Shown: positions 2,617 through 12,952 of the stretch, one piece after another | Numbering within the stretch: position 1 is the first letter of the stretch | Layout: each line of letters starts with the position of its first letter | Assembly: GCF_030227115.1 (NCBI RefSeq) | Contig: NZ_JASSUA010000001.1 | Coordinates: forward strand, 1,798,001 to 1,862,000 | DNA: 64,000 nt | Direction: 5' to 3' | Source of the DNA: Marinobacter sp. SS13-12 | Lineage (GTDB): Bacteria; Pseudomonadota; Gammaproteobacteria; Pseudomonadales; Oleiphilaceae | Program-made: the position numbers and the translations under genes | The notes under the pieces: generated by a model | What the model was told of the DNA's origin: nothing | Database searches by the model: none | Seen by the model: the letters and a program-made list of their open reading frames with translations, nothing else

Positions 2617-3555
2617 TTAGAGGAACGCTGCCAGGAACTGCCGGTGCTGTCGCAGTGCGCTGTCGATACCGGCAGCCCTGAGGCGCACGGTCTGCCCCGG
2701 CAGACATTGGGCAAGGCGGCTGGCGGCCAGGGGTGTCAGGTTGCCCAGACGCGGGTAGCCGCCAATGGTCTGCCGGTCGTTCAGCAGGACGATTGGCTGG
2801 CCATCCGGTGGTACCTGAACGGCGCCCAGTGAAATTCCTTCCGATACCAGTGAGCCGATGGTGCAGTGCAGCCGCGGGCCGGTAAGGCGAACCCCCATGC
2901 GGTCAGCGCGTTGGTCCACCTGCCATTGTGCATTGAATGTATCAAACAGACTCTTGCCAGTGAATGCCGCTATCTGTGCACCCGGCAACAGATCCAGCGT
3001 GGGTGTCTGGCGATAGTCCCGCTGTTCCTGCCCCGGCGCAACCCGATCCGTGGTGGCGGCTTGGTTCTGGTTTACGGGCAGGGTGTCCCCTTCCCGCAGG
3101 CTGGATCCCTGGCCGTCAAAGCCTCCAAGCTGTTCCCGTACCACGCAGGCGACGCTTCCCAGTACGGTATCGCTGCGAAACCCGCCTGCCACGGCAAGAT
3201 ACGCCCGCAAACCGTTAACCGGGGTGCGAAAGGTCAGCGTATCGCCGGCACTGATGGCCAGGGTTCGCCACATGGCCGCCGGCTGCTGATTGTGCTTGGT
3301 GCCAAGGTCTGCGCCTGTCAGTGCAATGGTCAGGTCCCGCTCTGCTACCAGTTCCAGCCCGCCGAAAGTGATTTCGAGCGCTGCGGTGCCCCAGGCATTG
3401 CCTGTGAGGTGGTTGGCCCAGGCCCAGGCGTGCAGGTCAGCCGGCCCGCCCTGGGTTACACCCAGGTGTCTGACTCCGAAACGGCCCGCATCCTGCAACA
3501 GCGCCAGAGGGCCGGCGCGGGAGACGTGAAATCCGGTCAGGTCGCTTGCACTCAT
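2617..3555 (-). CDS. pxpC: 5-oxoprolinase subunit PxpC (biotin-dependent carboxyltransferase family, KipA-like)
   Basis: A 312-residue AHS2/KipA-family protein and one of three subunits of the prokaryotic ATP-dependent 5-oxoprolinase, which opens 5-oxo-L-proline to L-glutamate. The family N-terminal pattern is visible (GPLALLQDAGRFGVRHLGVTQ), followed by GGPADLHAW. The C-terminal half has the conserved GSLVSEGISLGAVQVPPDGQ and the VLLNDRQTIGGYPRLG block. It is the last gene of the long minus-strand operon and overlaps pxpB by 4 bp (ATGA). Adjacent pxpB and pxpA make the assignment firm. Without the neighbours it could have been called allophanate hydrolase subunit 2. Confidence 0.93.
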   Translation of the reverse strand: MSASDLTGFHVSRAGPLALLQDAGRFGVRHLGVTQGGPADLHAWAWANHLTGNAWGTAALEITFGGLELVAERDLTIALTGADLGTKHNQQPAAMWRTLAISAGDTLTFRTPVNGLRAYLAVAGGFRSDTVLGSVACVVREQLGGFDGQGSSLREGDTLPVNQNQAATTDRVAPGQEQRDYRQTPTLDLLPGAQIAAFTGKSLFDTFNAQWQVDQRADRMGVRLTGPRLHCTIGSLVSEGISLGAVQVPPDGQPIVLLNDRQTIGGYPRLGNLTPLAASRLAQCLPGQTVRLRAAGIDSALRQHRQFLAAFL

Positions 3556-4277
3556 TTTGTCGACTCCCCGTTACAGGGTGAGGCATCGCCACCCTGCGCC
3601 TCGAATTCCTCCCGGTTCAACGCCACGAAGCGCACGCGGTCGCCCACCCTGAGCAGACTGAACCCCTCGCGATTGCGATCAAACAGCCGTGCCGGCGTCC
3701 GGCCGATCAGGTTCCAGCCGCCGGGAGTGACCACCGGGTAAGCCGCAGTTTGCTGGCCGGCGATAGCCACGCTGCCCGCGGGGACTTTCTGACGCGGGGT
3801 ATCCAGACGCGGACAGTTCAGTGCCTGGTCCAGCAGTCCCATAAAGGCAAACCCGGGCGCGAAGCCGAGAGCGAACACGCGATATTCCCGGCTGCTATGA
3901 GCTTCGATGACGGAATCGATCGACAGGTCTGAGAGATCGGCCACCCGCTGGAGGTCAGGGCCTACCTGCTGGTGGTACCAGGTGGGTAGCTCGTGGAGTT
4001 TTCCACCGGCGTCGGCTTCGGCAGGCCTGAGGGTGGCGAGTATGTCGAGCAGTTTTTGTCGCGCCTCGCTGGGTGTTATCCGAAGCGGATCAAAAACCAC
4101 CATCAGCGTTGTGTAGGAAGGCACCAGGTCCACTAGGGTGTCGCCAAATGCAGCCTCACATTCCTCAGCAAGGGCGGTCAGCCACAGAAGGTTGTTTTCC
4201 TCAATGCTGTCGAACAGCCGCACCATCCAACCATCCAGGCCGGCCCGTTCCAGGCAGGGTAAGCGTGTGGATTTCAT
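3552..4277 (-). CDS. pxpB: 5-oxoprolinase subunit PxpB (KipI-like)
   Basis: A 241-residue AHS1/KipI-family protein, partner of PxpC in 5-oxoprolinase. The diagnostic region is present: FALGFAPGFAFMGLLD, then RLDTPRQKVPAGSVAIAG, then YPVVTPGGWNLIGRTPARLF. It overlaps pxpA upstream and pxpC downstream by 4 bp each, which suggests translational coupling and fixed subunit ratios. The start gives a normal family length. B. subtilis KipI inhibits the sporulation kinase KinA, but no kinase is nearby here, so the 5-oxoprolinase role is preferred. Confidence 0.93.
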   Translation of the reverse strand: MKSTRLPCLERAGLDGWMVRLFDSIEENNLLWLTALAEECEAAFGDTLVDLVPSYTTLMVVFDPLRITPSEARQKLLDILATLRPAEADAGGKLHELPTWYHQQVGPDLQRVADLSDLSIDSVIEAHSSREYRVFALGFAPGFAFMGLLDQALNCPRLDTPRQKVPAGSVAIAGQQTAAYPVVTPGGWNLIGRTPARLFDRNREGFSLLRVGDRVRFVALNREEFEAQGGDASPCNGESTK

Positions 4278-5029
4278 GCCCGTTCTTTAAGCTGGTTGAG
4301 CATTTGCCGAATAGCGAGCACGGAGGCCACTGACTCTTCGTTATCTCCGTGGACACACAGGGTGTCTGCAGTCAGGATCAGTTCACTGCCATCGCTGGCG
4401 GTTAGTGGTTGCCCCGTGGCAATTCGCTGGGCCTGATCGAGAATAACGTCAGGGTCGTGATGTACCGCACCCGCCTTAGTTCTGGAAACCAGCCTGCCGT
4501 CGGCGTCGTAGGCGCGGTCGGCAAAGGCTTCAAACCAGAGTGCGAGGTCGTGCTCACGGGCCAGTTCACGTATAGCGCTGGGGTCTCGGGTTGCCAGGGT
4601 CATCAGCGGCAGTTCCGGGTCATAGGCTTTAATGGCCCTGGCGACGGCGCTGAAGATTTCCGGTTTGTGGGTCATATCGTTATAGAGCGCGCCGTGGGGT
4701 TTTACATAACGGAGCTCAGTGCTTTCTGCCCGACACATGGCCGCCAGGGCACCTATCTGGTAGAGCACCAGATTTTCGATTTCCTCCGCCGAAAAGGCCA
4801 TTGAGCGGCGGCCGAAACCGACCAGGTCCGGGTAGGCCGGATGGGCTCCGATACCGACGGCATGTTCCGCTGCCATGCGAACCGTGCGCCGCATGACGTC
4901 CGGGTCCGAGGCGTGAAAGCCGCAGGCGATATTGGCCAGATCCACGTGTGGCATAACCTTGTGGTCCAGGCCCATCACCCAGGGGCCGAAGCTTTCACCC
5001 ATGTCGGCGTTCAGCAGTAAAGGTTTCAT
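4274..5029 (-). CDS. pxpA: 5-oxoprolinase subunit PxpA (LamB/YcsF family)
   Basis: A 251-residue LamB/YcsF protein with a TIM-like fold, the third subunit of 5-oxoprolinase. The start LLLNADMGESFGPW, the ANIACGFHASDP segment, VGIGAHPAYPDL and the KPHGALYND motif are all hallmarks. The C-terminus has LCVHGDNEESV. The length matches the family (about 245-255). An AGAGGACACC ribosome site precedes the ATG. It follows the oxidoreductase gene after 39 bp and leads the tightly coupled pxpABC block. Confidence 0.95.
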   Translation of the reverse strand: MKPLLLNADMGESFGPWVMGLDHKVMPHVDLANIACGFHASDPDVMRRTVRMAAEHAVGIGAHPAYPDLVGFGRRSMAFSAEEIENLVLYQIGALAAMCRAESTELRYVKPHGALYNDMTHKPEIFSAVARAIKAYDPELPLMTLATRDPSAIRELAREHDLALWFEAFADRAYDADGRLVSRTKAGAVHHDPDVILDQAQRIATGQPLTASDGSELILTADTLCVHGDNEESVASVLAIRQMLNQLKERA

Positions 5030-12110: not shown

Positions 12111-12148
12111 GGTGTTTTCCTCATGGTCTTCGTCGGGGTTGGTTCTTT

Positions 12149-12952
12149 TCAGAACAGGGCCAGGCTGTTGTCAGGAATATCCGTGACTAGCATGTGCCCC
12201 GGGCTGTGGGTGATGGCGAACTCGATACCGGAATCGATCAGGACCTGCTGTGGTGTAACACCACAGGCCCAGAACACCGGAATTTCATTCTCACCCACGG
12301 AAACGGAGTCGCCGTAATCCGGTGCACTCAGATCGGCAACGCCGATCAGGGATGGGTTGCCGAGGTGCACGGGAGAACCGTGAACCTGCGGGTAACGGGT
12401 AGTGATCTGGATGGCACGGATGGCGTCAGCGGCCACAAACGGTCGCATGGAGACAACCAGGTTGCCGCCAAAACCGCCCGCTGGCGTCAGTGGTACCGAG
12501 GTGTTGTACATCGGCACGTTTCTGGCTTCGTCTATATGGCGAACCTGAAGCCCGGCGCTGATCAGGGCGTGCTCAAAGGTAAAGGAGCAGCCAAGCGCAA
12601 AAGTCACCAGGTCATCCCGCCATTCTTCTGCGACATCCGTACAGGTGTCACTGACCTGGCCATCGCGGTAGATGCGGTACGCTGGCACATCGCGGGCAAT
12701 GTCCAGATCACGGCCTAAAAGGGTGCAGGTGCGGGCGCCGGGTTCACTGACAGCGAGCAGGGGGCATGGTTTGGGGTTGGCCTGGCAGAAACGGAGGAAG
12801 CCCGCGGCCTGGGATTCCGGCAGGATGACCAGGTTGACCTGGACATACCCACTGGCAAGCCCGGACGTTGGCCCGGTCAGGCTGCCTTCTCTCGCGGCCT
12901 GGCGAACAGCCTGGGGTGTTGAGTGTGCGTCCAGCTGAGCGATGCTTGTCAT
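12149..12952 (-). CDS. DUF1445 family putative hydro-lyase (D-glutamate cyclase family)
   Basis: A 267-residue member of the UPF0317/DUF1445 family. Key parts are ASGYVQVNLVILP, the DLVTFALGCSFTFEHAL block with its conserved Cys, and GGNLVVSMRPF, followed by FWACGVTPQ and ITHSPGHMLVTD. The mammalian homologue DGLUCY converts D-glutamate to 5-oxo-D-proline, and bacterial members are usually listed only as putative hydro-lyases. Being the first gene of an operon that ends in 5-oxoprolinase makes D-glutamate cyclase activity an attractive inference. The start is ATG, 58 nt downstream of a LysR-type operator and a plausible promoter. Confidence 0.85.
   Translation of the reverse strand: MTSIAQLDAHSTPQAVRQAAREGSLTGPTSGLASGYVQVNLVILPESQAAGFLRFCQANPKPCPLLAVSEPGARTCTLLGRDLDIARDVPAYRIYRDGQVSDTCTDVAEEWRDDLVTFALGCSFTFEHALISAGLQVRHIDEARNVPMYNTSVPLTPAGGFGGNLVVSMRPFVAADAIRAIQITTRYPQVHGSPVHLGNPSLIGVADLSAPDYGDSVSVGENEIPVFWACGVTPQQVLIDSGIEFAITHSPGHMLVTDIPDNSLALF

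Follow-up and report, generated by a model that had tools for sequence, protein, structure and literature searches.

What does the operon at positions 2617 to 12952 of our window import, and where does the imported compound go? The window is a 64,000-nucleotide stretch of Marinobacter sp. SS13-12 (GCF_030227115.1, NZ_JASSUA010000001.1, positions 1,798,001 to 1,862,000, forward strand). The operon has eleven minus-strand genes in the order DUF1445-dctPQM-DUF2848-amidase-GlpM-like-OYE-pxpABC, in which dctPQM encodes a tripartite ATP-independent periplasmic (TRAP) transporter, OYE is an Old Yellow Enzyme family gene, and pxpABC encodes the subunits of 5-oxoprolinase. An earlier reading of the sequence (the original prediction) called it a complete D-glutamate and pyroglutamate (5-oxoproline) uptake and catabolism operon. 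All eleven genes are present, ten of them confirmed by family in Pfam and NCBIfam scans (reported as Pfam bits and against each NCBIfam model's own cut-off) and the GlpM-like one with only a weak sub-threshold match, and they are as tightly packed as predicted, with gaps in transcription order of 38, 64, -4, 32, -4, 5, -8, 39, -4, and -4 bp. Our best explanation, held with about even confidence, is a 5-oxoproline-linked catabolic operon of what we call type 2, importing a compound that resembles glutamate or 5-oxoproline but is not plain L-5-oxoproline. For the pathway, we can only infer the labels "complete" and "D-glutamate."

Conservation of the operon

We compared the best 80 of 122 close DUF1445 homologue loci, with up to 10 kb on each side. 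Gene calling in high-GC loci used third-position GC. The loci were picked via DUF1445, so the counts describe the company of DUF1445 and are not a background rate. The closest named DUF1445 homologue among the matches listed was from Marinobacter azerbaijanicus (96%).

Thirty-six loci formed a Marinobacter/Halomonas group (L026 to L061, with L028, L042, L043, L048, and L050 on short contigs). A LysR-type regulator gene and dctP were present in 36/36, dctQ and dctM in 34 each, DUF2848 in 33, the amidase in 31, and the GlpM-like gene in 29. The company that these genes keep exceeds chance, which agrees with the proposal of one operon with conserved neighbors. However, DUF1445, TRAP, and pxp genes had also been expected to stay together, and this was true of dctP but less so of pxpB (24/36), pxpC (23/36), and pxpA (20/36). 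Together with the OYE gene (14/36), pxpABC are the least stable members of the operon. The OYE gene had been proposed as a pathway part. At this frequency it is optional, and we rejected it as a core component.

The remaining 44 DUF1445 loci, in which gene names were taken from single representatives, had no DUF2848, operon-type amidase, GlpM-like, or OYE gene. They contained pxpA (18 loci), a fused HyuAB gene of ~1,200 codons (20 loci), a major facilitator superfamily (MFS) gene (15 loci), or a branched-chain-type ATP-binding cassette permease gene (4 loci). We also surveyed 58 genomes, with the Marinobacter sp. SS13-12 genome counted in and 36 of them same-genus relatives. PF07286, the DUF1445 family, was in 25, PxpA in 48, and DUF2848 in 13, all of which carry PF07286. 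One same-genus locus (L139, genome G004) has an eroded-looking operon consisting of LysR, a partial DUF1445 match, dctM, and pxpBC; dctP and dctQ were undetected there.

The TRAP receptor and its cargo

The operon receptor gene, dctP (11046 to 12110, minus strand), encodes 354 amino acids (aa) and was identified by PF03480 (83 bits) and NF037995 (above cut-off; TIGR00787 was below), by a tree, and by a structure model. It had been likened to the Bordetella pyroglutamate receptors. However, its best match to one of these (DctP6, 2PFZ) had an E value of only 9.1e-17, over residues 58 to 263. In a tree of 82 DctPs, with several long branches flagged, 27 were in a type-1 clade with the strong matchers of 2PFY and 2PFZ, 47 were in the type-2 clade of the operon DctP, and 8 were outside both. 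Type-1 receptors matched 2PFY or 2PFZ with E values of 4e-76 to 5e-99. These included a Variovorax receptor beside DUF1445 (L067; 4.5e-99 to 2PFZ) and the L132 receptor (9e-97 to 2PFY, which is DctP7), the only one searched among those of L131 to L134, L140, and L141. An alphaproteobacterial type-2 receptor (L121) matched 2PFY at 1.7e-18. Furthermore, the Marinobacter sp. SS13-12 genome has a type-1 receptor of its own (G000:C3:378886-379803), which is 45% identical to that of L132 and matches 2PFY at 2.4e-90. Given the weak E value and the separate clade, we rejected orthology between the operon DctP and the Bordetella receptors, and position alone is no ground for calling it the receptor of a pyroglutamate TRAP.

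Type-1 receptors are usually accompanied by pxp genes. Sixteen type-2 loci were without pxpA. Long contigs cover 11 of these, and each of the 11 genomes has a pxpA within ~5 kb of a divergent type-1 TRAP. This pairing suggests that the type-2 cargo is probably not plain L-5-oxoproline, and that D-glutamate, D-5-oxoproline, or an amide precursor fits better. At L042 and L043, a type-1 TRAP and the type-2 operon adjoin each other back to back. Marine dissolved organic nitrogen plausibly includes pyroglutamate and D-glutamate, so what the TRAP carries has a bearing on the nutrition of Marinobacter and Halomonas.

Several points weigh against our best explanation. Among solved structures, the nearest to the predicted operon DctP structure were the pyroglutamate receptors 2PFY and 2PFZ (21 to 22% aligned identity). 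Such nearness speaks for our best explanation but would fit plain 5-oxoproline too. Six same-genus genomes with PF07286 and without DUF2848 have a simpler LysR-DUF1445-dctPQM-pxpABC operon (L131 to L134, L140, and L141). DUF1445 accompanies a type-1 TRAP and pxpABC there, and is therefore no mark of a cargo other than 5-oxoproline. One genome can also have two importers for a single cargo. Genomes G068, G069, and G071 each carry a second PxpA. Finally, L036 has a type-2 TRAP with pxpABC but DUF2848 nowhere in its genome, so DUF2848 is dispensable.

The first alternative is that the operon TRAP imports pyroglutamate (L-5-oxoproline) or D-glutamate and that DUF1445 is a D-glutamate cyclase, the amidase, DUF2848, the GlpM-like protein, and OYE having secondary roles. 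The structural ranking is consistent with this, although type-1 rows in the model's alignment may have biased it. Given also the receptor's separate clade and E value, the type-1 receptor in the same genome, and the 11/11 long-contig cases in which a type-2 operon without pxpA coexists with a type-1 TRAP and pxpA, we consider this alternative unlikely.

Two other TRAP arrangements were seen. In the Marinobacter sp. SS13-12 genome, the type-1 TRAP lies ahead of M17 aminopeptidase and S15-type peptidase genes (L166:8794-11697), and the 19.5 kb read there contained no pxp genes. Seven Variovorax loci (L063, L065, L067, L072 to L074, and L076) have a third, distant TRAP divergent to LysR-DUF1445, followed in six by a glycine-cleavage-T-like cluster.

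DUF1445 and lactam-opening enzymes

DUF1445 (12149 to 12952, minus strand) is the first gene of the operon and encodes a 267-aa member of PF07286 (D-Glu_cyclase, 215 bits), also labelled UPF0317 or "putative hydro-lyase" (NF003969, 404.7 against a cut-off of 324). It is the only PF07286 gene in the genome. A lactam-opening enzyme was encoded in 63 of the 80 DUF1445 loci, either as pxpB/pxpC on the DUF1445 strand (43 loci) or as fused HyuAB (20 loci), and never as both. Of the 17 loci with neither, eight were shorter than 16 kb (L028, L042, L043, L048, L050, L069, L070, and L102), seven were long type-2 loci (L038 to L041, L044, L045, and L059), and two were long loci of other groups (L080 and L092). 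These counts support a tie between DUF1445 and lactam opening. For fused HyuAB, NCBIfam gave sub-threshold caprolactamase-type and carboxylase-type matches alone. Its nearest solved relative was an N-methylhydantoinase, and the next was a chain bearing the name 5-oxoprolinase, a name that we did not adopt for fused HyuAB.

In our genome, the complete set of 5-oxoprolinase subunits is encoded in the operon, which has the only PxpA gene. The genes, all on the minus strand, are pxpA (4274 to 5029; PF03746/LamB_YcsF, 320 bits; NF003816, 358 against 213), pxpB (3552 to 4277; PF02682/CT_C_D, 225 bits; TIGR00370, 163 against 145.55), and pxpC (2617 to 3555; PF02626/CT_A_B, 279 bits; TIGR00724, 243.1 against 230.2; PxpC equivalog NF045499, 204.5 against 500). 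In four relatives (G066, G074, G075, and G077), the single PF02682 (PxpB) gene found is within the type-2 operon, and the single PxpA found adjoins a type-1 TRAP at another locus. This indicates that the operon feeds 5-oxoprolinase. The 5-oxoproline link of the operon stands, but the cargo named in the original prediction does not follow from it, and that prediction is partly supported. In its favor are the locus counts and the Bacillus subtilis precedent described below, which tie DUF1445 to lactam opening, as well as these four genomes and an adjoining glutamate dehydrogenase gene. The strongest hints here on the role of bacterial DUF1445 are its association with lactam-opening enzymes from two unrelated families and the separation of PxpA from PxpB.

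The four type-2 operons concerned (L035, L046, L047, and L051) retain pxpB and pxpC, with the single PxpA detected at L150, L142, L143, and L144, a 5-oxoprolinase split over two loci. At another same-genus locus (L157:7196-10364, genome G019), pxpABC follows genes for a DUF1989 protein and a sodium:solute symporter.

The mammalian enzyme DGLUCY, which turns D-glutamate into 5-oxo-D-proline, was offered as a parallel for DUF1445. The two do have the DUF1445 domain in common. However, DGLUCY also has a DUF4392 domain, whereas PF07286 is the sole domain of the operon protein. In the available part of the DGLUCY report, turnover was shown for the whole protein, homology of DUF4392 to racemase was discussed, and activity was not assigned to DUF1445 alone (PMC5339696). 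Because the mammalian evidence is not specific to the DUF1445 domain, "D-glutamate cyclase" is a hypothesis for the bacterial members. A search of our genome for DUF4392 (PF14336) found none, and no control genome gave a match either. Solved bacterial relatives of DUF1445 (3DB9 and 2PIF) are labelled UPF0317 only. A literature search found no paper joining UPF0317 or "putative hydro-lyase" with 5-oxoprolinase, although other wordings might exist.

DUF2848 and the amidase

DUF2848 (PF11010, 260 bits) is on the minus strand at 8395 to 9072, with a longer open reading frame from 9108. The start at 9072, which gives 225 aa, is probable because nearly all listed homologues have that length, and it removes the overlap with dctM. 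Its predicted fold is that of fumarylacetoacetate hydrolase (FAH), with 10 to 17% aligned identity to FAH superfamily structures. Pfam assigned DUF2848 alone, and a sequence search of solved structures gave nothing significant (best E, 0.51). FAH enzymes have an E-x-E ... D set of metal ligands, followed by a lysine. Counted within the DUF2848 alignment only, E90, E92, D109, and K124 (237-aa numbering) were present in 26/26 rows. We found no paper on DUF2848, although other wordings might exist.

The amidase-signature family gene (7067 to 8398, minus strand; start corrected to the ATG at 8398) matched PF01425 (294 bits) and the NF005460 subfamily (574 against 447). The partner of DUF2848 is usually an amidase. 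Outside the genus, 20 of the 25 DUF2848 loci have one, the majority lacking DUF1445 or pxp, and an MFS gene adjoins the pair in five. Also, PxpA was found in 36/36 same-genus relatives, with or without this operon. These two results favor a second alternative, in which TRAP, amidase, and FAH-type DUF2848 form an unrelated carboxylate-amide degradation core, to which gene shuffling added DUF1445 and pxpABC with no common pathway. However, among the DUF2848 loci from outside the genus, DUF1445 was present in 8/8 with a TRAP (against 1/17 of those without), it accompanies two families of lactam-opening enzymes, the sole PxpB of four genomes is within the operon, and a close homologue of the amidase directly precedes pxpABC in two loci without other operon parts (L153 and L167), all of which makes this alternative improbable. 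In both of these same-genus loci, amidase-pxpABC (L153:7459-8871) directly follows glmU- and glmS-looking genes.

Proposed pathway and related systems

How would a type-2 operon work? In our best explanation, the TRAP would import a small acidic compound, which may be D-glutamate, 5-oxo-D-proline, or a precursor in amide or lactam form. Part of this substrate range might be processed by the amidase and by DUF2848, a predicted metal-dependent FAH-fold enzyme. DUF1445 may catalyze a reaction leading into 5-oxoproline, such as the lactam step on D-glutamate. PxpABC, by the reaction known for its family, would open 5-oxoproline to L-glutamate with ATP, both for this route and for 5-oxoproline from the separate type-1 TRAP. 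The adjoining glutamate dehydrogenase, likewise by its family reaction, could convert glutamate to 2-oxoglutarate. The signal for the LysR protein is probably an intermediate. Only by inference do we assign a cargo to the TRAP, a reaction to DUF1445, and roles to the amidase, DUF2848, GlpM-like protein, OYE, and LysR.

Tentatively, this could be taken further. Type-2 operons might be a second 5-oxoproline branch, marked by a separate clade of TRAP receptors, by an amidase, and by DUF2848 as a new enzyme family with the FAH fold. The cargo would become 5-oxoproline only inside the cell, a separate type-1 TRAP would import 5-oxoproline, and some genomes would share one split PxpABC. Two cargoes are chemically coherent in such a branch. 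One is D-glutamate or 5-oxo-D-proline, with DUF1445 performing a stereospecific lactam step. The other is cyclic 2-oxoglutaramate (2-hydroxy-5-oxoproline), which could be hydrolyzed by an omega-amidase-like enzyme or converted to 5-oxoproline by a hydro-lyase (DUF1445) and an ene-reductase (OYE).

Known systems have parts of this arrangement. PF07286 was detected in our B. subtilis control genome, in which we take the gene order to be ycsF(pxpA)-ycsG-ycsI-kipI(pxpB)-kipA(pxpC). According to the available part of a report on that operon (PMC10448178), the DUF1445-type gene ycsI sits in it together with pxpABC, as in Marinobacter. However, YcsG, a reported manganese importer earlier described as a 5-oxoproline importer, is in place of the TRAP, and that part mentions no amidase, DUF2848, GlpM-like, or OYE gene. 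Corynebacterium glutamicum pxpTABC and PxpR, as far as the available part of their report describes them (PMC13274462), also combine dedicated 5-oxoproline uptake, PxpABC, and a regulator, but the transporter is of the APC superfamily, the regulator is GntR type, and the cluster described has no DUF1445.

The Bordetella pertussis receptors DctP6 and DctP7 and the marine receptor 6WGM, pyroglutamate receptors by their titles, belong to the same TRAP receptor family as the operon DctP and have the nearest solved folds to its model, whereas the sequence scores of 2PFY and 2PFZ are weak and their close relatives are in the other clade. The type-1 Marinobacter operons share the order of LysR, DUF1445, TRAP, and pxpABC but encode a DctP6/7-like receptor, and genes for DUF2848, the amidase, the GlpM-like protein, and OYE were not found in these loci. 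For DUF2848, the likeness to the FAH superfamily is the shared predicted fold. We rate the operon as a variation on the 5-oxoproline operons known from B. subtilis and C. glutamicum, set apart by the different clade of its receptor and by the addition of an amidase and FAH-fold gene pair. This gives bacterial DUF1445, DUF2848, and type-2 DctP, all poorly characterized, one common biochemical setting. Within the accessible literature on pyroglutamate and Marinobacter, we found nothing about such an operon.

Other genes and neighbors

The other TRAP genes are dctQ (10385 to 10981, minus strand; PF04290, 61 bits), encoding the small membrane protein, and dctM (9105 to 10388, minus strand; TIGR00786, 324 bits against 268), encoding the large one. 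The OYE gene (5069 to 6235, minus strand) is NamA-like (PF00724/Oxidored_FMN, 222 bits), with NF010047 NamA at 361, under its cut-off of 431. The duplicated GlpM-like genes of the original prediction turned out to be a single gene (6228 to 7061, minus strand) for a 277-aa membrane protein with hydrophobic segments and two weakly similar halves, and we rejected two GlpM genes. Residues 2 to 39 match the second half (E, 0.001), and residues 4 to 106 match NF006751, which we take to be a GlpM-type model, at 24.6 bits against a cut-off of 154. No Pfam family was assigned.

Scans of 2300 to 14600 were uninformative for promoters (2 promoter-like sites, where 3.9 were expected) and for terminators (18 terminator-like sites, where 8.9 were expected, with none listed from 2300 to the pxpC end). 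Upstream of the operon, the LysR-type gene (13060 to 13971, minus strand; PF03466 and PF00126) likely encodes its regulator. Its start is overlapped by an Lrp/AsnC-type regulator gene (13971 to 14423, minus strand; PF01037 and PF13412), which was present in 9/36 Marinobacter/Halomonas-group loci. The divergent neighbor is the NAD-glutamate dehydrogenase gene (14582 to 18094, plus strand), for which NCBIfam returned no family and Pfam gave PF05088 at 880 bits. It was in the same orientation in 7/36 loci.

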